From positions 496,001 to 560,000 of the forward strand of contig NZ_AP019711.1 of the NCBI RefSeq assembly GCF_010537335.1: a DNA stretch of 64,000 nt. Direction: 5' to 3'. Below the pieces are notes generated by a model. It ran no database searches. It was given only the letters and a program-made list of their open reading frames with translations, and had not been told where the DNA came from. Below, one piece after another: positions 5,085 through 38,133 of this stretch. The stretch is from Amedibacterium intestinale (GTDB lineage Bacteria > Bacillota_I > Bacilli_A > Erysipelotrichales > Erysipelotrichaceae). The translations under genes and the position numbers were made by a program. How positions within the stretch are numbered: the first letter of the stretch is position 1; each line of letters begins with the position of its first letter.

Positions 5085-7324
5085 TGAAATTTACTATTTA
5101 TACAGCAAATTGTGTCGGTAATCCAGCGAATTCTCTTTATCCTAACAAATCTGAAATCAGTAATAAGGACGATATGCTTGCCGCCATTGCTAGAGATCAT
5201 GTATGTGCTGAGTTTAAGAATTGCCATCGAAGTGTTGATGATTTCATTTCCTCTGATATAGAGGTTATGGATTGTGATAACGACCATAGTGATGATTCTA
5301 AAGATTGGATTTATCCAGAAATGTATGAAGATTTATTTCCTAATGTCAGTTATATCGTAGTTCCAAGTAGGAACGATGGTAAGGATAAAGGTAATAAATC
5401 AGCAAGACCAAGACATCATATCTACTTTCCACATGAGCCAATTACTGTAGCTGAAGAATGTGCAGGTATCAAAGAGAGATTACAGGAAGTTATGACTTTC
5501 TTTGATGATAATGCACTTGATGCCGCAAGGTTTATTTTTGGTCATACGCCAACAGATATTATTTGGCATGAAGGAACTAGGTCGATTGTGGATTTTTTAG
5601 ATGAGTTGGATTTTGAAGAGTTTGATAATGCTACTCAAAGTATCGGCGAGGGTTCTCGTAACAGCACTATGAGCCATATTGCCGGACGCTTGATTAAAAG
5701 GTATGGGAATACGGATAAAGCACATGAAATCTATCTTGAAAAAGCTAAACTATGTAATCCACCTTTAGAATATAATGAACTCTCTTTGATTTGGAGCAGT
5801 GCAATTAAATTTGGTAAAAAGGTGCAAGCACAAGAAGGATATATTGCTCCAGAAGATTTTGAAAAAGGATACAGCTTAAAACCAGATGATTATTCAGATA
5901 TTGGACAAGCTAAGGTACTCGCTCGTGAATATAAAGGCGAACTTGCTTATACAGACTCGACTGATTATTTAAGATATGATGGTACGCATTGGTCTGAATC
6001 AAAGCAACTTGCTGTTGGTGCTTGCGAGGAGTTTTTGGATAAACAATTAAACGAGTCATTGGCAGCGGTAGAAAAAGCTAAGAAATCACTTCTTGATGCC
6101 GGCATAGATAAGGAAATCATTATGGCAGGAGGAAAAACGCTTGAAAAAGCAATTGATGAAAATAGTGAAAAAGCATTCAAGGAATTTATGATGGCATTGA
6201 AATATAATGCGTTCGTTATGAAAAGAAGAGATATGAAATACGTAACTTCTGCATTGCAAGCCGCTAAGCCCATGCTACTTAAGGAAATTACAGATTTTGA
6301 TGTTCAGGAGTTTCTGCTAAATACTCCTGATGGTACTTATGATTTAAGAAATGGAAGTAGTAAAGAACATCAAGCGGAAGATTTTATCACGAAAGTGACA
6401 GCAATTTCTCCAAATGATTTAGGCATGAATTTATGGCTTAATGCTTTAGAAAATTTTTTCTGTAAAGATAAGGAACTTATTGATTATGTACAACAAATCG
6501 TAGGTCTTTCTGCAATTGGAAAAGTTTATGTTGAGGCTCTTGTAATTGCTTATGGAGAAGGAAGTAATGGTAAAAGTACGTTTTGGAATACCATCGCACG
6601 AGTTCTTGGAACATACAGCGGTGCAATTTCAGCAGATGCATTGACTGTTGGTTGTAAAAGAAATGTCAGACCGGAAATGGCAGAACTTAAAGGTAAGCGA
6701 TTAGTTGTGGCAGCTGAGCTTGAAGAAGGAATGCGTCTTAATACATCAATCGTTAAACAGCTATGTTCTACAGATGAGGTATCTGCAGAAAAGAAATATA
6801 AGGATCCATTTAAATATGTGCCAACTCACACGCTAGTTTTATATACAAACCATCTTCCAAAGGTAGGTGCAAATGATGATGGTACTTGGCGTAGACTGAT
6901 TGTCATTCCTTTTAATGCAAAAATTACTGGTAGTGGAGATAAGAAAAATTATGCTGATTATCTTTATGAAAACGCAGGTGGTGCAGTTCTTTCATGGATT
7001 ATTGATGGAGCACAAAAGGCTATCAAAAATAACTTCAAGATTAAAAATCCTAAGGTTGTTGAGGATGCCATCAATAAATACCGTGAAAACAATGACTGGC
7101 TTTCTAGTTTTATTGAAGAATGTTGTGAAGTAGATGATTCTTATCAGCAAAAATCGGGAGAGTTCTATCAAGAGTATCGTTCTTATTGTGCAAGAACCGG
7201 AGAGTATACAAGAAGTACCACTGATTTTTATACAGGAATTGAAAATGCAGGATTTAAAAGAAAGAAAACGAAAGGATGCAATTTTGTGCTTGGAATTCGT
7301 TTGAAATCGGACTTTTTAGATTAG
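5084..7324 (+). CDS. Phage/plasmid primase-helicase (VapE/D5, P4 type)
   Basis: A 746-residue protein with an N-terminal primase-like region and a C-terminal superfamily 3 helicase. The Walker A loop (GEGSNGKSTF) is near residue 490; the following VVAAELEEG strand and the YTNHLPKV sensor segment are typical of D5/P4 helicases. The D5-N region precedes the ATPase. In phages of this type it opens the origin and primes the phage polymerase. A repeat cluster immediately downstream is a candidate origin. Length and domain order are normal. Confidence 0.92.
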   Translation: MKFTIYTANCVGNPANSLYPNKSEISNKDDMLAAIARDHVCAEFKNCHRSVDDFISSDIEVMDCDNDHSDDSKDWIYPEMYEDLFPNVSYIVVPSRNDGKDKGNKSARPRHHIYFPHEPITVAEECAGIKERLQEVMTFFDDNALDAARFIFGHTPTDIIWHEGTRSIVDFLDELDFEEFDNATQSIGEGSRNSTMSHIAGRLIKRYGNTDKAHEIYLEKAKLCNPPLEYNELSLIWSSAIKFGKKVQAQEGYIAPEDFEKGYSLKPDDYSDIGQAKVLAREYKGELAYTDSTDYLRYDGTHWSESKQLAVGACEEFLDKQLNESLAAVEKAKKSLLDAGIDKEIIMAGGKTLEKAIDENSEKAFKEFMMALKYNAFVMKRRDMKYVTSALQAAKPMLLKEITDFDVQEFLLNTPDGTYDLRNGSSKEHQAEDFITKVTAISPNDLGMNLWLNALENFFCKDKELIDYVQQIVGLSAIGKVYVEALVIAYGEGSNGKSTFWNTIARVLGTYSGAISADALTVGCKRNVRPEMAELKGKRLVVAAELEEGMRLNTSIVKQLCSTDEVSAEKKYKDPFKYVPTHTLVLYTNHLPKVGANDDGTWRRLIVIPFNAKITGSGDKKNYADYLYENAGGAVLSWIIDGAQKAIKNNFKIKNPKVVEDAINKYRENNDWLSSFIEECCEVDDSYQQKSGEFYQEYRSYCARTGEYTRSTTDFYTGIENAGFKRKKTKGCNFVLGIRLKSDFLD

Positions 7325-22203: not shown

Positions 22204-22818
22204 ATGGGTAATAAAATTAAATATAATCTTAAAAATGTTCACGCTGCAAAACTTACAAAAGCAGAGGATGGAACATATACTTATGAAACACCAAAAACAA
22301 TTCCGGGTGCTGTTAGTATCAGTTTAGATGCTGAAGGAGATACTTCTCCGTTTTATGCCGATGGAATTGTTTATTTCAGAAGTGTATCAAACAATGGATA
22401 CAGTGGTGATCTTGAAATGGCACTTATTCCTGAATGGTTTAGAACAGAGATTTTAAAAGAGGAACTTGATAAGAATGGTGTGCTTGTTGAGAATGCTACA
22501 GTAGCGGAAATGGAAAAATTCGCACTGTTATTTGAGTTTGATGGGGATGTTAGATGCATTCGTCATGTTTTATATAACTGTACGGCATCTCGTCCATCTA
22601 TTGAATCTGAAACAAAGGAAGATACGATTGAGCCGGGAACGGAAACATTATCACTTACAGCAGATCCAAGAGAAGATGGTCTTGTTAAAAGTAGAACAGG
22701 CGATTCTACAAGTGAGTCTACTTACGCTGAGTGGTATAAATCAGTATATATCCCTCAAGCTCAAGAAGTCGTTCAAGCGTTAAGTAGGAAAGTAGCAGGA
22801 GGTGTTAAGAATGCTTAA
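22204..22818 (+). CDS. Major tail tube protein
   Basis: A 204-residue protein of the phi13-type major tail family: the N-terminal GNKIKYNLKNVHAAKLT, the central DGIVYFRSVSNNGYSGDLEMALIPEWF and the terminal SESTYAEWYKSVYIP. It forms the stacked hexamers of the tail tube. It overlaps the chaperone gene by 8 bases. Confidence 0.93.
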   Translation: MGNKIKYNLKNVHAAKLTKAEDGTYTYETPKTIPGAVSISLDAEGDTSPFYADGIVYFRSVSNNGYSGDLEMALIPEWFRTEILKEELDKNGVLVENATVAEMEKFALLFEFDGDVRCIRHVLYNCTASRPSIESETKEDTIEPGTETLSLTADPREDGLVKSRTGDSTSESTYAEWYKSVYIPQAQEVVQALSRKVAGGVKNA

Positions 22819-23185
22819 GAAAACAATTAATGTTGGTGGTAAGGAAGTAGCATTTCGCTCATCCGCTACAATTCCTCGGCTTTATCGTGCTAAGTTCAAA
22901 CGTGATATTTTTAAGGATTTGGCAAAACTTGAAAAGTCATATGAGGGAGCACAGGCAGAGGGCGAAGAATTTGCGATTGATGATTTAGAGATTTTTGAAA
23001 ATGTGGCTTACATCATGGCATATCATGCTGATCATACAATTCCAGCAGATATTGATGAATGGTTAGACCAGTTTGATATGTTCTCAATCTATGAGGTATT
23101 ACCGGAGATTCTCGCTCTTTGGGGAACAAACCTTATTACTGATATTGACTCTAAAAAAAACTTAAAAAAAGTAGCAGGGAAATGA
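22811..23185 (+). CDS. Tail assembly chaperone, short form
   Basis: A 124-residue protein in the position of GpG-type tail chaperones between the tube and tape-measure genes. It starts KKTINVGGKEVAFRSSATIPRLYR, matching Firmicute chaperones. The 3' end has two slippery A-runs (A AAA AAC at 23155-23161 and A AAA AAA at 23164-23170) in the zero frame. A -1 shift would enter the next frame, as known for siphovirus chaperones. Its stop overlaps the next ATG. Confidence 0.88.
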   Translation: MLKKTINVGGKEVAFRSSATIPRLYRAKFKRDIFKDLAKLEKSYEGAQAEGEEFAIDDLEIFENVAYIMAYHADHTIPADIDEWLDQFDMFSIYEVLPEILALWGTNLITDIDSKKNLKKVAGK

Positions 23186-23346
23186 CAACCCCACTATTCC
23201 TCTTGCGAAGTTTGGAAATAGGAATTTCTATCAAAGATTTAGACCATTTAACTATCGGTATGGTTATGGATATTTGGACGGAGAAAGCTAATGACTCTGT
23301 TAAGTATGAGAATGTAGCAACTCAAGAGGATTTTGATAAGTTCTAG
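23182..23346 (+). CDS. Tail chaperone extension (GpT-like part, -1 frame)
   Basis: A 54-codon frame, open upstream to 23155 in the -1 frame. It encodes MTTPLFLLRSLEIGISIKDL and ends KF. It can be read as a separate ATGA-coupled ORF or, more likely, as the extension produced by -1 frameshifting on the A-rich heptamers. The long form binds the tape-measure protein in well-studied phages. Confidence 0.7.
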   Translation: MTTPLFLLRSLEIGISIKDLDHLTIGMVMDIWTEKANDSVKYENVATQEDFDKF

Positions 23347-23358
23347 AAAACAGGTATT

Positions 23359-23429
23359 TGAACAAACACCTTGACTTACTTTTAGCTTTTTATTAAAATA
23401 TAATTAAGGTGAGTGAACAAACACCTTGA
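23359..23429 (+). promoter_or_regulatory. Moron promoter flanked by two operator repeats
   Basis: TTGACT (23371-23376) and TAAAAT (23394-23399) are 17 bases apart. The 16-base repeat TGAACAAACACCTTGA occurs at 23359-23374, overlapping the -35, and again at 23414-23429, just after the expected transcription start. This layout suggests repression by a DNA-binding protein, possibly the product of the next gene. Confidence 0.65.
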
Positions 23430-23454
23430 TTATGGCATTGAAAGGAGAATTTAT

Positions 23455-23769
23455 ATGCGTGTTCAATTTACTGTAAATGATGATGAATGGACTAAATTAA
23501 AGAAACTTGCAGAAGATAATGGTTACCCAGATGTTCCTTCTTATTGTAGAGATATTTCTTTGCAAGAAAGAACTTATGCTGATTTTTGGAAAACCATCAC
23601 AGAAAAAATAAGTAAAATGGAATCAGGACAAGTTTTTGCTTTACGTGATTTAGTTCCGTTACCACCATCAAATTTAGGTGTAAAACTTTACAATAATCAA
23701 AAAGTTTTAGGAATAGAAGTTAACTCAAAAAAAGATAGCTTAAGAACTAATACTTTTAGAAAGTTATAA
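23455..23769 (+). CDS. DUF1413-like protein with RHH-type N-terminus (phage moron)
   Basis: A 104-residue protein with its own promoter and terminators, inserted between the tail chaperone and tape-measure genes. Residues ~1-40 (RVQFTVNDDEWTKLKKLAED) look like a ribbon-helix-helix DNA-binding start; residues ~60-104 (GQVFALRDLVPLPPSNLG ... FRKL) resemble DUF1413. The ATG has AAAGGAG 7 bases upstream; an upstream in-frame TTG does not. It is not a standard tail gene, so it is best read as a moron expressed in the lysogen. Function is unknown. Confidence 0.7.
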   Translation: MRVQFTVNDDEWTKLKKLAEDNGYPDVPSYCRDISLQERTYADFWKTITEKISKMESGQVFALRDLVPLPPSNLGVKLYNNQKVLGIEVNSKKDSLRTNTFRKL

Positions 23770-23787
23770 ATTCAATGTTTCAAAGAG

Positions 23788-23847
23788 GGCATCAATCTGA
23801 AAAGGTTGGTGCTTTTTCTATGCTCGGTTTATACCGGGCTATTTTTA
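23788..23847 (+). terminator. Tandem terminators after the moron
   Basis: Hairpin 1 (GCATCAATC / GGTTGGTGC, G-U pairs, loop TGAAAA) is followed by TTTTT. Hairpin 2 (GCTCGGT / ACCGGGC) is followed by TATTTTT. They lie directly ahead of the tape-measure ribosome site. Confidence 0.6.
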
Positions 23848-23873
23848 TGCAATTTTTAAGGAGGTATCAGCCA

Positions 23874-26800
23874 ATGGCAAACAGAATCAAAGGTATTACT
23901 GTCGAAATTGGCGGTGATACTACCAAGCTTCAAACAGCTTTAAAAGGAGTAAATAGTCAGATTAAAAACACGCAGTCTGTCCTTAAGGACGTAGAAAAAC
24001 TTCTAAAGCTAGATCCTACAAACATAAATTTACTTACTCAAAAGCAAAAGTTATTAACACAGGCAATTGGTGATACTAAAGAAAAACTAGCTACTTTAAA
24101 AGTTGCAGCCCAACAAGCAAACGAGCAACTTCAAAAAGGAGAAATCAGTCAATCTCAATATGATGCACTTCAAAGAGAGATTGCTGAAACAGAGGCAGAA
24201 CTTAAAAAGCTAGAATCACAAGCTTCAAAGACCAATCAAACATTGACTAAAATCGGTGATGTAGGTACTAAGCTTGAAAACGCAGGAAAGAGCATAACCA
24301 ATGTTGGTAAAAAGGCATCTGTTGCTTCTGCTGCAGTAACAACTATGGGTGTGGCATCTGTAAAAACAGCAGCGGACTTTGAATCTTCAATGAGCCAAGT
24401 ACAGGCTACAATGGGTATTACCAAAGATTCCATGTCTGAAGTTAATGGTCAATCCGTCAATACGATGGATACATTAAATGACCTTGCTAAAACAATGGGT
24501 TCTAAAACAGCATATTCTGCAAGTGAATGTGCAGAGGCACTTAATTACCTAGCACTTGCCGGTTACGATACTCAGCAGATGGTTGATACTCTTCCTACTG
24601 TATTAAACTTAGCGGCGGCCGGTAATATCGATTTAGCTAGTGCTTCTGATATGGTAACAGATGCAATGTCAGCTCTTGGTATGGAAGTATCTGATGCAGA
24701 TAAGATGGTTGATCAGATGGCTAAAACTGCATCAAGCACCAATACTTCTGTCGGACAGTTAGGAGAAGGGATCCTTACTATCGGTGCAACTGCAAAAACA
24801 GTCAAAGGTGGCACTGCAGAATTGAACACCGCACTTGGTATCCTTGCTAACAACGGTATTAAAGGTGCAGAGGGTGGTACTCATCTTAGAAACGTAATTC
24901 TTTCACTTCAAAATCCAACAGATAAAGCAACATCATTAATGAAATCTCTTGGTGTAGAGGTTTATGATAGTCAAGGTAATATGCGTAGCCTAAATGATAT
25001 TTTAGGTAATCTCAACAAAAGCATGGATGGAATGACGGCTGCTGAAAAATCAAATATCATCAGTCAGATTTTCAATAAAACAGACCTTGCATCTGTAAAT
25101 GCACTGCTTGGAAATACCGGAGATACTTGGAGCAGCCTTCAAAAGAAGATAGAAGAAAGTGGTGGTGTTGCACAGAAGATGGCAGACACCCAGCTTGATA
25201 ACCTTCATGGTCAACTTACTATTTTAAAGTCGGCAGTTGAGGGATTTGCAATCTCAATCGGTGAAGCACTTATGCCAATGATAAAAAGCATCGTTTCTAA
25301 AATTCAAGGCTTTGTAGATTGGCTAAATAACCTTGATGATGGAACAAGACAAGTGATAGTAAAGATAGGACTATTCGTTGCTGCTCTTGGTCCACTTCTT
25401 TTGATACTTGGAAGTGTGATTTCAAAAATCGGCGTAAGTATACAGGCGTTTAGTAAGCTTGGACTTAAAATCAGTGAACTTGTAGCAAATGCCGGAGGTG
25501 TATCTGGTGTAATGGCAAAAGTAGGAACAGCTATTGGTGGAATATCTGCTCCTGTGATTGCTGTGGTGGCGGTGATAGGAACATTGGTCGCTGCATTTAT
25601 TCATCTTTGGAAAACGAATGAAGAATTTAGAGATAACATTATCGCTATCTGGAATCGAATAAAAGAAATCTTTACTGGTTTTGCTCAAGGTATTACTGAT
25701 AGATTAAATGCTTTAGGGTTTGATTTTGAAAACTTCAAAGAAGTTGTATCTGTAATTTGGAATGGTTTATGTGAGTTTCTTGCGCCTGTGTTTGAGGGTG
25801 TTTTCTCTCAGATTGCCAATGTGCTAGAAGAAACTCTTGGAATTATTACAAGCATCTTAGATGTATTTATTGGTATTTTCACAGGCAATTGGTCACAGCT
25901 TTGGGAAGGAGTAAAAGGAATATTTAGTTCCGTTTGGGAATTTATCAAGAATACTTTTACAATTTGTATGAATACAATTCGAGGTATTGCTGATGTCGTT
26001 CTAGGTTGGTTTGGTACGTCTTGGAATGAAATATGGATTGGGATTAAGGATTTCATTGTTGGCATTTGGACAGGCATCTCTACTTTCTTTGTAAATCTTT
26101 GGGAAGGAATAAAAAATACTGTACAAACTGCCATTATGTTTATTGGTTCAATCATTCAAGGAGCATTTGACATCATCACATTGCCATTTCGTTTCATTTG
26201 GGAGAATTGTAAGGAAATTATCATCTCTGTATGGGATGCAATTAAATCTGAAGTAACCACAGCTATTAATGAAGTATCCAGTACAATAAGCACTGTTTTA
26301 AATAGAATAAAAATGGTGTTCACGACTATTTGGGAATTGATAAAAATTGTTGTTACTACCGTTCTTGATTCGATTAAATCCGTAATTACTACCGCTTTTA
26401 CTGCAATACAGACTTTTGCTACTACCGTTTGGAATGGAATCAAGACAGCAATTATTACTCCAATTAATGCTGTAAAAACAACAGTAACAACTGTATTTAA
26501 TTCTGTGAAGTCAACGATGTCGAGTGTATTTAATAGTATCAAAAGTACTGCAACATCAGTATGGAATGGGATAAAAACGGCAATTGTCACTCCGATTGAA
26601 AAAGCAAGAGATACTATTAAAGGAATCGTAGATAAAATCAAAGGGTTCTTCAGCAGTATGAAAATATCTCTTCCGCATATTAAATTGCCACATTTCAAGG
26701 TTTCAGGAAAGCTATCTATTATGCCACCATCAGTTCCAAAGCTATCGATTGATTGGTACAAGGAAGGTGGTATCATGACAAAACCTACAGTCTTTGGAAT

Positions 26801-27059
26801 GAATGGTTCTTCGCTTATGGCAGGTGGAGAAGCAGGCGCAGAAGCAATTCTTCCTCTTTCTGGTTTTTATAAACAGTTAGAGGCTATGATTTCAAGTCAC
26901 CTTAATACAGGCGTGATGGAAAAGTATCTATCAATTATTGCAGATAACAGCAGTAAAGGAATCTATCTTGAAGATGGAACTTTGGTTGGTCATTTACTTC
27001 CTGCTCTTGATGAGGGACTTGGTAATAAACAAAAACTTACAAGGAGGCTTTCATTATGA
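23874..27059 (+). CDS. Tail tape-measure protein
   Basis: A 1061-residue protein. The N-terminus has long coiled coils (residues ~1-140) and the PhageMin_Tail core (ASSMTDFE-like KTAADFESSMSQVQATMGI, AGYDTQQMVDTLP, SLGVEVYDSQGNMRS). Two hydrophobic stretches (~500-520 and ~560-580) and a long Trp/Thr-rich repeat region (WNGIKTAI, TTVFNSVKS) follow. It sets tail length and may form a channel at DNA entry. AAGGAGG precedes the chosen ATG; a longer frame begins inside the upstream terminators. Confidence 0.95.
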   Translation: MANRIKGITVEIGGDTTKLQTALKGVNSQIKNTQSVLKDVEKLLKLDPTNINLLTQKQKLLTQAIGDTKEKLATLKVAAQQANEQLQKGEISQSQYDALQREIAETEAELKKLESQASKTNQTLTKIGDVGTKLENAGKSITNVGKKASVASAAVTTMGVASVKTAADFESSMSQVQATMGITKDSMSEVNGQSVNTMDTLNDLAKTMGSKTAYSASECAEALNYLALAGYDTQQMVDTLPTVLNLAAAGNIDLASASDMVTDAMSALGMEVSDADKMVDQMAKTASSTNTSVGQLGEGILTIGATAKTVKGGTAELNTALGILANNGIKGAEGGTHLRNVILSLQNPTDKATSLMKSLGVEVYDSQGNMRSLNDILGNLNKSMDGMTAAEKSNIISQIFNKTDLASVNALLGNTGDTWSSLQKKIEESGGVAQKMADTQLDNLHGQLTILKSAVEGFAISIGEALMPMIKSIVSKIQGFVDWLNNLDDGTRQVIVKIGLFVAALGPLLLILGSVISKIGVSIQAFSKLGLKISELVANAGGVSGVMAKVGTAIGGISAPVIAVVAVIGTLVAAFIHLWKTNEEFRDNIIAIWNRIKEIFTGFAQGITDRLNALGFDFENFKEVVSVIWNGLCEFLAPVFEGVFSQIANVLEETLGIITSILDVFIGIFTGNWSQLWEGVKGIFSSVWEFIKNTFTICMNTIRGIADVVLGWFGTSWNEIWIGIKDFIVGIWTGISTFFVNLWEGIKNTVQTAIMFIGSIIQGAFDIITLPFRFIWENCKEIIISVWDAIKSEVTTAINEVSSTISTVLNRIKMVFTTIWELIKIVVTTVLDSIKSVITTAFTAIQTFATTVWNGIKTAIITPINAVKTTVTTVFNSVKSTMSSVFNSIKSTATSVWNGIKTAIVTPIEKARDTIKGIVDKIKGFFSSMKISLPHIKLPHFKVSGKLSIMPPSVPKLSIDWYKEGGIMTKPTVFGMNGSSLMAGGEAGAEAILPLSGFYKQLEAMISSHLNTGVMEKYLSIIADNSSKGIYLEDGTLVGHLLPALDEGLGNKQKLTRRLSL

Positions 27060-33037: not shown

Positions 33038-33071
33038 AGGGTTAATACAAGTGCGAAGGGAGAGATTATAT

Positions 33072-34271
33072 TTGAAAATTATTAAATTACCATTACTAAA
33101 AGAAGAGTTTAAAAAACGAAAAGTAGCTGCTTATACAAGGGTTTCTGTTAGTTCGGATAGTTTACTACATTCTTTAGCTAATCAAGTGTCACATTATACA
33201 GAGATGATTCAGAAAAATCCAGAATGGGAGTTTGTTCAAGTGTATGTTGATGAAGGAGTAACAGGGACAAGTACGGAAAGTAGAGAACAATTCTTGAAGA
33301 TGATGGATGATGCTAGAGCTGGTCGATTTGACTTGCTTTTAACAAAATCGGTCTCAAGATTTGCAAGAAATACAGTGGACTTATTAGAATCGTGCAGAGA
33401 ATTAAAATCACTGAATGTGGAAGTTCGATTTGAAAAAGATCGTATTTCGACTTTCAATTCTGACGGGGAACTAGTTCTTTCATTATTAGCATCCTATGCT
33501 CAAGCAGAATCTGAATCAATATCTCAGAATGTTAAGTGGGGCAAAACCAAACAAATGCAAGATGGGGTATATCATCATTTCACAAGATGTTATGGTTACG
33601 ATTGGGATGGAGATATTTATGAGATTGTAGAGGAAGAAGCCGAAGTTGTAAGGTTCATCTATAAAGCATATCTTGATGGAATGTCACCAAAGAAAATATC
33701 TGAATTGATAACTGCAAAAACAGTAACAGGTAAAAATTTCACAAGAGGAACAGTAAAAGATATTTTGAAGAATCGTATTTATATTGGAGATAGAGTGCTT
33801 CAACAATTTTACTCTCCAAGAGTAAGAAAATGTAATAGAAATTATGGAGAAGTACCAAAGTATATTTTGCCAGAGGTGCATGAACCCATCATCGCCAGAG
33901 AAATGTTTGATGAAGTTCAAAATGTAATGCAGCAAAAAGCAAAAGATACGCCTAAGAAAACCTTTACTTGCTTTTCTGGAAGGTTGAAGTGTGGTCATTG
34001 TGAAAGAGCACTTTGTAGAAGAACATTGCATGGTAAAAAGATATGGAAATGTCAAGGCAATGAAATTAGTAAAACTTGTCAGGCTAGATACATTACGGAA
34101 GAAAAATTAAAGGAATATACATTTTCGATTTTTGAAGATGAGAACGAATTCAAAATGAGAGTAGACCATATAAAAGTGTACGATGATTACTTAGAATACA
34201 TTTTTAAAGATGACACAATGAAAACGATAGAACGAAAGGAGCCAAAACGAAGATGCAGACAAGGAAAGTAG
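33072..34271 (+). CDS. Large serine recombinase 1
   Basis: A 399-residue recombinase. The catalytic serine is S25 in AAYTRVS; SVSRFARNTVDLL gives the conserved arginines. A recombinase domain follows from ~165 and a zinc ribbon with CGHCERALC and CQGNEISKTC near residues 310-340. It lacks the long coiled-coil extension of its partner, so it is shorter than typical integrases. I chose the TTG preceded by AAGGGAGAG; a GTG upstream is possible. The 3' end overlaps the second recombinase by 19 bases, so both are made together. Confidence 0.9.
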   Translation: MKIIKLPLLKEEFKKRKVAAYTRVSVSSDSLLHSLANQVSHYTEMIQKNPEWEFVQVYVDEGVTGTSTESREQFLKMMDDARAGRFDLLLTKSVSRFARNTVDLLESCRELKSLNVEVRFEKDRISTFNSDGELVLSLLASYAQAESESISQNVKWGKTKQMQDGVYHHFTRCYGYDWDGDIYEIVEEEAEVVRFIYKAYLDGMSPKKISELITAKTVTGKNFTRGTVKDILKNRIYIGDRVLQQFYSPRVRKCNRNYGEVPKYILPEVHEPIIAREMFDEVQNVMQQKAKDTPKKTFTCFSGRLKCGHCERALCRRTLHGKKIWKCQGNEISKTCQARYITEEKLKEYTFSIFEDENEFKMRVDHIKVYDDYLEYIFKDDTMKTIERKEPKRRCRQGK

Positions 34272-35839
34272 TAACGGTTATTCCTGAAAAGAAGCAAGAT
34301 ATCATTCAAGAGGACTCGGCTGAACTAAAAAAGAAAAAAGTAGCAGGATACGCTCGTGTTTCAACTGAACTGGATGAACAACAGAATTCATATAATTCAC
34401 AGCTTGACTATTATACAAACTATATAAATTCAAGAAGTGACTGGGAGTTTGCTGGAATGTATTCAGACGAAGGCATCACCGGAACAAGCATCAAAAAGCG
34501 AGAAGGTTTTACTTCTATGATTCAAGATGCACTTGATGGTAAAATCGATATGATAGTGACTAAATCTATTTCAAGATTTGCAAGAAATACAGTAGATACG
34601 CTTTCAACAGTGAGAAAGTTAAAAAATGCAGGGATTGAAGTTTTTTTTGAAAAAGAAAACATTTATACGCTTGATTCAAAAGGAGAGCTACTTCTTACTA
34701 TTCTATCTTCACTGGCACAGGAAGAAAGTAGATCTATTTCAGAAAATACGACTTGGGGTCAAAGAAAAAGAATGGCGGATGGTCATGGATGTTTAGGATT
34801 TTCAAGATTCTTAGGATATGATAGAGGTCCTAATGGAGAGTTTGTCATCAATGAAGAGCAAGCAAAAATAGTGAAGCGAATATATTACGAGTATTTAGAT
34901 GGTAAGTCATCTGCAGAAATTGCTAGAAGATTGACTGCTGATGGTATTAAGACTGTTACAGGAAAGGATAGATGGGATACTTCAACCATTATATCCATTC
35001 TTAAAAACGAAAAGTATAAAGGCGATTGTTTAATGCAGAAGTATTATATCAACGATTATCTAGAAAAGAAGTTAATAAAGAATAAAGGTGAATTACAGCA
35101 ATATTATGTTGAAAATCATCATGTTCCTATTGTATCAGCAGAGGTTTTTGATCGAGTACAAATGATGATGAAAAGTAAAAGGCGAAAGAAAAGAGTATCT
35201 GCTGCTAGAGACTTTTCTTCGATGATAATTTGTGGGGATTGTGGTGAGTGCTATGGTTCAAAAGTATGGCATTCAAATAGTAAATATAAGAAAATCATTT
35301 ATAGATGTAATGCTAAATATAATGGGGAGAAGAAATGTAATACTCCCGCTATTGATGAAGAAAGATTAAAAGAAATATTTGTAGAAGCTATTAATATATT
35401 ATTGATTGACAAAGATGAGATTATTGATAATATCAATTGCTTGCTAGATATAAAGAAACAATGCAAAACTTATGCCGACGAAATTAGACAGGCTGCAGTA
35501 AAAGTTGAAAATATAGAGCAAGTATATAGAAAAATTATTAATGATCAAAAGTCTAATCCATTACCATTTGAAGAATATGAAATGTTAATTAAGAAGTATG
35601 GTCATGAGTATGATAATGCTAGAGAAAGTTACAATGCATTAATTGAAGATAACAATTTACATGAAAGAGAAGTCTGCAAGTTAGAAGAATTTATTCATCA
35701 ATTTGAGCATTGTGATAAAATTGTTCTTGAATATGATTACGACTTAATGAAACGAACAACTGAAAGCATAGTTGTTAATACAGATGGGACAATAACAATA
35801 AATTTTATTGGAGAACAAAATATAACACTTAAAATATAG
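34253..35839 (+). CDS. Large serine recombinase 2 (integrase type)
   Basis: A 528-residue recombinase with catalytic S37 in AGYARVS, the SISRFARNTVDTL motif, a recombinase domain, a zinc ribbon (CGDCGECYG ... CNAKYNGEKKC, ~325-360) and a coiled-coil C-terminus (~390-490), which in phage integrases controls direction with an excisionase. It is the best candidate for integration into comEC. The tandem partner may be needed as a heteromer. A hairpin terminator follows. Confidence 0.92.
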   Translation: MQTRKVVTVIPEKKQDIIQEDSAELKKKKVAGYARVSTELDEQQNSYNSQLDYYTNYINSRSDWEFAGMYSDEGITGTSIKKREGFTSMIQDALDGKIDMIVTKSISRFARNTVDTLSTVRKLKNAGIEVFFEKENIYTLDSKGELLLTILSSLAQEESRSISENTTWGQRKRMADGHGCLGFSRFLGYDRGPNGEFVINEEQAKIVKRIYYEYLDGKSSAEIARRLTADGIKTVTGKDRWDTSTIISILKNEKYKGDCLMQKYYINDYLEKKLIKNKGELQQYYVENHHVPIVSAEVFDRVQMMMKSKRRKKRVSAARDFSSMIICGDCGECYGSKVWHSNSKYKKIIYRCNAKYNGEKKCNTPAIDEERLKEIFVEAINILLIDKDEIIDNINCLLDIKKQCKTYADEIRQAAVKVENIEQVYRKIINDQKSNPLPFEEYEMLIKKYGHEYDNARESYNALIEDNNLHEREVCKLEEFIHQFEHCDKIVLEYDYDLMKRTTESIVVNTDGTITINFIGEQNITLKI

Positions 35840-37047: not shown

Positions 37048-38133
37048 TCATGCGCACTTAGAAAGAAGGCTCATACAGGTACGCTTACGCTCCATATCGG
37101 AATGAATGTAGCGGTTAAGCGTGACTTCTACGGAGCTATGCCCTAAAATCTCGGACAGCGTTTTCACATCAAAGCCCAGTTCGACACACCTTGTTGCAAA
37201 TAAATGGCGCAGGCTGTGATAGTGGAATGACGGCAAATCTGCGTTATGCAGTATTTTAGCGAAGCGGTACTGCATTGTTCTTGGCTCAACAGGCTTTTTC
37301 CTGCCGGACACCACATAGACCTCACCGTTATCCTTAAACCGTCTGAGCAGAGGAAGCAGGCAATCAGGGATAGGAATTGTTCGTTTAGAACTTTCGCTTT
37401 TCGGCTCAGTGATGATGAGCTTGGTTTGTTTGGATCCTGTTCTGCACTGCACACGCTGAATGGTCTTGCTGACGGTCAAAACACGTTTTTCAAGGTCAAT
37501 CTCTTTCCATTGCAGAGCGCAGACCTCACCGATACGCAAGCCCATATACATCGAGATTGCAATACCCACGCTCGTAACAGACGGACGCTCGTCCAGATAT
37601 TTTTCAAGCCTGAGCTGCTGTTTCTTGTTCATAACAGCAATTTCAGGCTTATTCTTTTTGGGGAGAACGATACCGTCAAGTACGTTACGGATTCTATATT
37701 CACGGCTTGCATAGCGAAAAACCGACTTGAACAGCACGATAATATCAGACAGATACCGCACCGACAAGCCCTCTTTTATCTTGCGTTCGATAAAAGCATA
37801 TATATCTTTCGCTTTCAGCAGACAGCACTTTATCTCTCCAAATGCAGGTATAAGGTGCTTTTCGGCTTTCATGACGTAGTTGGCAGCCGTTGACTCCTTT
37901 ATTCGTGATGCTGTCACATGAAGCCACTCGGTCACAAGCTCTCTGACCGTCATTTCCGTTACAGTGTACTCGTCCTCGCTGTGATCCAGTGCTATCATAG
38001 CCTTGTATTCGGCTTCATCACGGCTTTTTCCGTAGAACGAACGGAATACACGTCTGCCGTTCTCATCTTTGCCCATAGATATACGGCACTCCCAGCGTCC
38101 GTCCCTGCGTTTATAAGCTGTTTTCTTGCTCAT
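37048..38133 (-). CDS. Tyrosine recombinase/integrase (Tn916-like)
   Basis: A 361-residue integrase with an arm-binding N-terminus (KKTAYKRRDGRWECRISMG), a SAM-like core-binding domain (~60-150) and the catalytic set: R in MGLRIGEVCAL, HxxR in HYHSLRHLFATR, H in LGHSSVEVTL and the tyrosine in NRYIH. It is visibly richer in G and C than everything around it, so it was acquired from another background. Its 3' end faces the left edge about 270 bases away. No excisionase gene is next to it. Confidence 0.93.
   Translation of the reverse strand: MSKKTAYKRRDGRWECRISMGKDENGRRVFRSFYGKSRDEAEYKAMIALDHSEDEYTVTEMTVRELVTEWLHVTASRIKESTAANYVMKAEKHLIPAFGEIKCCLLKAKDIYAFIERKIKEGLSVRYLSDIIVLFKSVFRYASREYRIRNVLDGIVLPKKNKPEIAVMNKKQQLRLEKYLDERPSVTSVGIAISMYMGLRIGEVCALQWKEIDLEKRVLTVSKTIQRVQCRTGSKQTKLIITEPKSESSKRTIPIPDCLLPLLRRFKDNGEVYVVSGRKKPVEPRTMQYRFAKILHNADLPSFHYHSLRHLFATRCVELGFDVKTLSEILGHSSVEVTLNRYIHSDMERKRTCMSLLSKCA

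Follow-up and report, generated by a model that had tools for sequence, protein, structure and literature searches.

Is a small gene that lies between the chaperone and tape-measure genes of a prophage tail operon part of the tail machinery, or is it a passenger under its own control? We addressed this question for a 104-aa gene in a 64,000-nucleotide stretch of the Amedibacterium intestinale genome (contig NZ_AP019711.1, positions 496,001 to 560,000), hereafter the window. Its product joins a ribbon-helix-helix (RHH) part to a DUF1413 part. A sequence-only reading had proposed a self-controlled moron with a promoter, two identical 16-base operators flanking the gene and two terminators. Our analysis makes it quite probable that the gene is a one-gene moron, i.e., a mobile cassette of O1, promoter, O2, gene and terminator that is negatively autoregulated and occupies a recurrent cargo site of a siphophage-type prophage.

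Predicted operators, promoter and terminators of the RHH-DUF1413 gene

23352 to 23371, forward strand: putative operator O1, AGGTATTTGAACAAACACCT; the left copy of a 23-nt direct repeat spans 23352 to 23374.
23371 to 23376, forward strand: −35 element TTGACT.
23394 to 23399, forward strand: −10 element TAAAAT, after a 17-bp spacer.
23407 to 23426, forward strand: putative operator O2, AGGTGAGTGAACAAACACCT.
23442 to 23447, forward strand: ribosome binding site AAGGAG, assigned from the sequence.
23455 to 23769, forward strand: 104-aa gene for the RHH and DUF1413 (LP1413-like winged helix) protein, from the ATG at 23455 to the end of the stop codon.
23785 to 23818, forward strand: terminator-like hairpin 1, GCATCAATC/GGTTGGTGC, with a T-run.
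23822 to 23847, forward strand: terminator-like hairpin 2, GCTCGG/CCGGGC, with a T-run.

The two 16-mers (23359–23374 and 23414–23429) are indeed identical, and no further copy with up to two mismatches occurs in the window. They do not flank the gene as had been proposed; both are found 5′ of it, one on either side of the promoter. Each belongs to an imperfect 20-bp palindrome of the AGGnnnTTGAACAannnCCT type (23352–23371 and 23407–23426). O2 starts 7 bp past the −10 element and hence lies over the presumed start site.

A pair of AGGnnnTTGAACAannnCCT palindromes surrounds the promoter in 8/8 independent orthologues, which come from phages, integrative elements, a plasmid-like contig and chromosomes. 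In the other orthologues, one palindrome covers the −35 element and the second lies just past the −10 element, 41–43 bp away; the promoter spacing at the homologous place is exactly 17 bp in all seven of them. The operator strings were chosen by eye before matrices were built, and every matrix test excluded the locus under test. With such leave-one-out matrices, both sites were found in every orthologue, and the best score was reached by at most 2 of 1000 dinucleotide shuffles. A matrix built without the window sequence placed O1 and O2 at ranks 1 and 2 among all positions of the 64 kb. Likewise, the two sites of a Terrisporobacter phage ranked 1 and 2 in its 50 kb when that phage was left out. 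The orthologue L195 was rejected as a held-out test because it does not differ from L109 in upstream region or protein and is therefore not independent.

Conserved palindromes that overlap a gene's own promoter, found here in eight independent orthologues, are what characterizes an autoregulated gene. On this comparative evidence, negative autoregulation of the RHH-DUF1413 gene is well supported, and the family-wide operator pair argues strongly for the self-control suggested earlier. The uncharacterized RHH-DUF1413 family thereby gains a firm, testable prediction, namely its operator, in several independent genomes.

Two observations weigh against this picture. In the window, O1 and O2 are 55 bp apart instead of 41–43 bp, and the −35 element is displaced by 13 bp to TTGACT, as though a short insertion had occurred. 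Because the −35 element has thus moved out of O1 and the spacing is larger, the strength of repression in the window may differ. In addition, no obvious TTGAACAA operator was seen upstream of the inspected members of group B (L116–L158). These relatives, 42–46% identical, occur in Peptoniphilus, Anaerococcus, Streptococcus, Veillonella and others, and their N-terminal strand is shared with the window protein (MRIQFTV versus MRVQFTV there). They were excluded from the operator matrix.

The proposed promoter (TTGACT-17-TAAAAT, 23371–23399) was borne out with 10/12 consensus matches, although promoter-like matches of this quality alone are not rarer than chance (5 found versus 6.7 expected in the region). 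In the list of open reading frames (ORFs) of the window, the frame of the gene opens at an upstream GTG (23413). The two proposed terminators also held up, as both hairpins 3′ of the gene folded better than all 200 shuffles; hairpin 1 reached −17.0 kcal/mol, whereas its shuffles averaged −5.8. A simple terminator scan detected hairpin 2 and missed hairpin 1. The gene has a GC content of 28.9% compared with 36.7 ± 3.0% for the late operon.

With its predicted promoter and terminator, the gene would form a transcription unit of its own, as expected of a moron. Given the housekeeping-type promoter and the bounding terminators, transcription in the lysogen is to be expected, separately from the silent late operon. 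Such expression is plausible because orthologues outside phages have promoters of the same architecture.

Domain composition and proposed mode of action

23455 to 23559, forward strand: RHH part, residues 1–35 (strand MRVQFTV, helices 9–21 and 27–35), from family profiles, with the helices present in the model.
23566 to 23766, forward strand: DUF1413 winged-helix part, residues 38–104, from the structural match to 6btc and from family profiles.

The two-part composition read earlier from the sequence is supported by family profiles and by the model. Pfam DUF1413 (PF07205) reached 15.7 bits in the window protein alone, against a curated cut-off of 25. Over 13 family members, DUF1413 was matched in 8/13 (E ≤ 0.1, best 1.4e-6), RHH_1 in 4/13 and a NikA-like profile in 5/13 (best E about 0.001). 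The strand-helix-helix N-terminus together with the profile match places this part in the RHH (MetJ/Arc) superfamily. The AlphaFold model of the 104-aa protein (mean pLDDT 78, pTM 0.54) consists of two helices followed by a winged helix; the N-terminal strand is of low confidence or unmodelled, as expected of an RHH monomer. Model residues 38–104 matched LP1413 of SCCmec (6btc) first among 997 chains (Z 7.8, rmsd 2.0, 64 residues). Taken alone, a Z below 8 could reflect an arrangement common to many proteins, but an LP1413-like winged-helix fold is in agreement with the profile match. Foldseek by itself returned nothing significant from the PDB or the viral library. A PADLOC match to HEC-06 (E 0.007) was dismissed as noise, and a PDB profile search match to rubrerythrin-type proteins as chance.

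In its N-terminal strand-helix-helix and in the palindromic operators at its own promoter, the protein resembles RHH autorepressors of the CopG, Arc/Mnt, MetJ and ParD/RelB type. It differs from these in its added LP1413-like winged helix and in its two separate 20-bp palindromes, which bracket the promoter with about four helical turns between them. We infer that the protein dimerizes via the N-terminal RHH and that the dimer binds O1, which touches the −35 element, and O2, which covers the start site. The promoter would thereby be held at a low steady level. The winged helix probably makes a second nucleic-acid contact, either with the outer AGG/CCT half of each operator or with single-stranded DNA, as for LP1413.

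LP1413 is reported to adopt a winged-helix fold and to bind single-stranded DNA (PMC6851490, PMC7581432). The window protein shares this fold in its C-terminal domain, its family matches Pfam DUF1413, and both are carried on mobile elements; in contrast to LP1413, its domain is fused to an RHH part, and its gene is solitary and has operators of its own. A variant of the autorepressor, which we regard as unlikely, is a nucleic-acid-responsive one. Here, the LP1413-like domain would sense single-stranded DNA from phage replication, conjugative entry or damage and pull the RHH part off O1 and O2. Foreign or damaged DNA would switch on production of the protein, which would then act on that DNA, and the family would be a one-gene sensor-effector that moves among phages, integrative elements and plasmids.

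Orthologues and the question of a partner gene

An orthologue with 70% identity occupies the same place in Terrisporobacter phage TPDSL_ph1 (PP197246), a phage from culture supernatant, and one with 63% identity lies at the same tail site of an IMG/VR contig. A genome scan with the family alignment revealed orthologues with 52–68% identity in Lachnospiraceae and related bacteria. Their neighbours (L109–L115) were named by eye from the sequence and not by profile.

L110: The orthologue lies on a contig with ParA/ParB-like genes.

L113–L115: These orthologues belong to an integrative element with a VirB4-like gene, present in three species. In Lachnospira multipara (L114, 6325–7919), the RHH-DUF1413 gene is followed by a GTPase with a weak LeoA match; this GTPase is missing from the same element in the two other species.

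L109, L111 and L112: The positions are chromosomal or at the end of an element. In L109, a ComEC-like frame follows the RHH-DUF1413 gene, and the identical gene in L195 lies downstream of serine recombinase-like genes. This would fit the end of an element that has inserted into comEC.

L162 and L163: These distant relatives, apparently of the same two-part composition, lie singly on the chromosome in two genomes from the same family.

L116: This closely inspected group-B member lies between a relaxase-like and replication-like pair and an ORF6N-like protein.

Single-protein scans of the viral and genome contigs found nothing, and alignments were required there. The plasmid collection gave no match, and a phylum-wide sample of 392 genomes gave no new close orthologue. 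Weak genome matches in frames of 205–272 aa (L005–L011, L164–L171) were set aside; the two inspected (L165 and L168) are rubrerythrin genes matched by chance.

RHH antitoxins autoregulate through palindromes. Hence, the gene might be an orphan antitoxin or the regulatory half of a toxin-antitoxin-like pair that neutralizes or controls a partner encoded elsewhere, and RelBE/ParE pairs do occupy the same site in other phages, while another gene directly follows the orthologue in L110 and L114. However, the gene is solitary in most settings (window, L002, L018, L109, L111, L112, L113 and L115), where a terminator-like hairpin or an intergenic stretch comes next, and no partner gene is conserved among the settings compared. 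Such a role therefore seems improbable.

Search for other targets in the host genome

The sequence-only reading also suggested that the prophage-encoded protein could control host genes or superinfection, which would suit its own promoter, its two domains of DNA-binding type and its moron position. We scanned the 2.49-Mb host genome with strict and loose operator patterns and used the reversed pattern as a control. The matches showed no clear excess over this control (5 versus 6; 73 versus 62). Outside O1 and O2, the loose pattern was matched perfectly just once, at genome position 1814527, and this match was rejected as an operator because it lies inside an ORF. Thus, these pattern searches found no intergenic site of operator quality elsewhere in the genome, and control of host genes remained unsupported. 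A more degenerate specificity is possible, but we consider a regulator of host genes or superinfecting phages unlikely. With no convincing site elsewhere in the genome, the promoter of the gene itself is the target that can be seen.

A recurrent cargo site before the tape-measure gene

We compared 84 loci in which both flanking genes were readable, mostly the 80 IMG/VR contigs closest to the alignment of phrog_3033, the chaperone family on the left border. In this biased sample, in which a few loci are near-copies, the chaperone/tape-measure junction was empty (11–148 bp) in 57/84 loci and occupied (459–3690 bp) in 27/84. Inserts other than the RHH-DUF1413 gene fill 24 of the occupied junctions. 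They encode RelB/DinJ with RelE/ParE pairs, an MBL-fold enzyme, an isochorismatase, an AAA ATPase, a Vat-like acetyltransferase with a score below the Vat cut-off, and proteins without assigned function. The insert of L039 (5743–7662; IMG/VR 3300046030_000049) encodes a ribosomal protection protein of the TetM/TetW/TetO/TetS family with 1285 bits compared with the NCBIfam cut-off of 1100. Its contig of 214 kb has at least three such tail operons, and the Tet gene lies between phrog_3033 and the tape measure. A second, different DUF1413 protein occupies the same spot on the opposite strand in L096 (5166–5528, reverse strand). Directly upstream of that gene, at about 5555–5600, there is a near-perfect inverted repeat, AAAGTATGGTGCTACTATAT / ATATAGTAGCACCATACTTT.

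A nearly identical leader, TTGTTCACCACTTTTTCACTTCGGTATGGTATA, precedes differing cargoes in L054, L055, L057, L059 and L063 (Vat-like acetyltransferase, MBL-fold enzyme, GNAT plus isochorismatase, small protein without assigned function), which suggests that cargoes are exchanged between shared ends. Hairpins of the hairpin 1 type (GCATC..GGTGC) follow most cargoes of related phages, and a hairpin at the place of hairpin 2 is also present in several empty sites. A tree built from the flanking proteins, with 132 columns and hence only partly resolved, requires at least 12 switches between empty and occupied junctions on its supported branches, and at least 2 for the RHH cassette. The cassette seems to have been inserted here on at least two occasions. 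The nearest tail relative of the window (DNA identity 92% and 90% on the two sides) has a different gene without assigned function in the junction. Annotated phage records follow the same pattern, with a short junction gap in some and added genes in others.

Morons are expected to turn up sporadically at one fixed position between conserved genes, as is the case here. There is strong support for the proposed moron in the tail operon: most relatives do not have the gene, unrelated cargo occupies the exact site, and orthologues exist outside phages. Presence as an ordinary tail gene in all relatives, the finding that would speak against it, is not seen, as 57 of the 84 junctions are empty. The gene shares with phage morons of the HK97 gp15 type its own promoter and terminator, a deviating base composition and presence or absence at a fixed site. 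It differs in that the product is a predicted DNA-binding autoregulator and in that the multi-cargo spot before the tape-measure gene also takes resistance-type and toxin-antitoxin genes.

That the gene instead aids or regulates tail assembly as an ordinary late-operon gene, with sites acting on the late transcript, e.g., as a roadblock tuning tape-measure expression, would fit its position between chaperone and tape measure in the late operon of three phages but is highly improbable, given the many relatives with the same flanking genes and no such gene, the orthologues with the same operators outside tail operons, and its own promoter and terminator; it is clearly not an ordinary tail gene.

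In the open-access literature, which is incompletely covered, we found no description of this cargo site. The junction before the tape-measure gene is, in many Bacillota siphophages, a repeatedly filled cargo spot for toxin-antitoxin and resistance-type genes and for genes without assigned function, and is thus a place to look for prophage-encoded traits.

Neighbouring genes in the window

22811 to 23185, forward strand: tail assembly chaperone, gpG-like (phrog_709), left neighbour, between the major tail protein and the tape measure; PHROG 709, E 1e-40.
23155 to 23161, forward strand: slippery heptamer A AAA AAC, a predicted −1 frameshift site joining both chaperone ORFs (G/GT type).
23182 to 23346, forward strand: 54-aa C-terminal part of the chaperone, gpT-like (phrog_3033), left border of the cargo site; PHROG 3033, E 2e-24.
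23874 to 27059, forward strand: tape-measure gene, right border of the cargo site; PHROG 1272, E 5e-225.

The PHROG matches on both sides bear out the placement of the gene between chaperone and tape-measure genes. From the in-frame A AAA AAC, the −1 frame stays open into the 54-aa phrog_3033 ORF, and this slippery site with its open frame supports the chaperone identity of the left neighbours. Further downstream in the window, at 33051–35839 and 37048–38133, two adjoining large serine recombinase genes are followed by a tyrosine integrase on the opposite strand. These recombinase and integrase genes suggest a second element beside the prophage.
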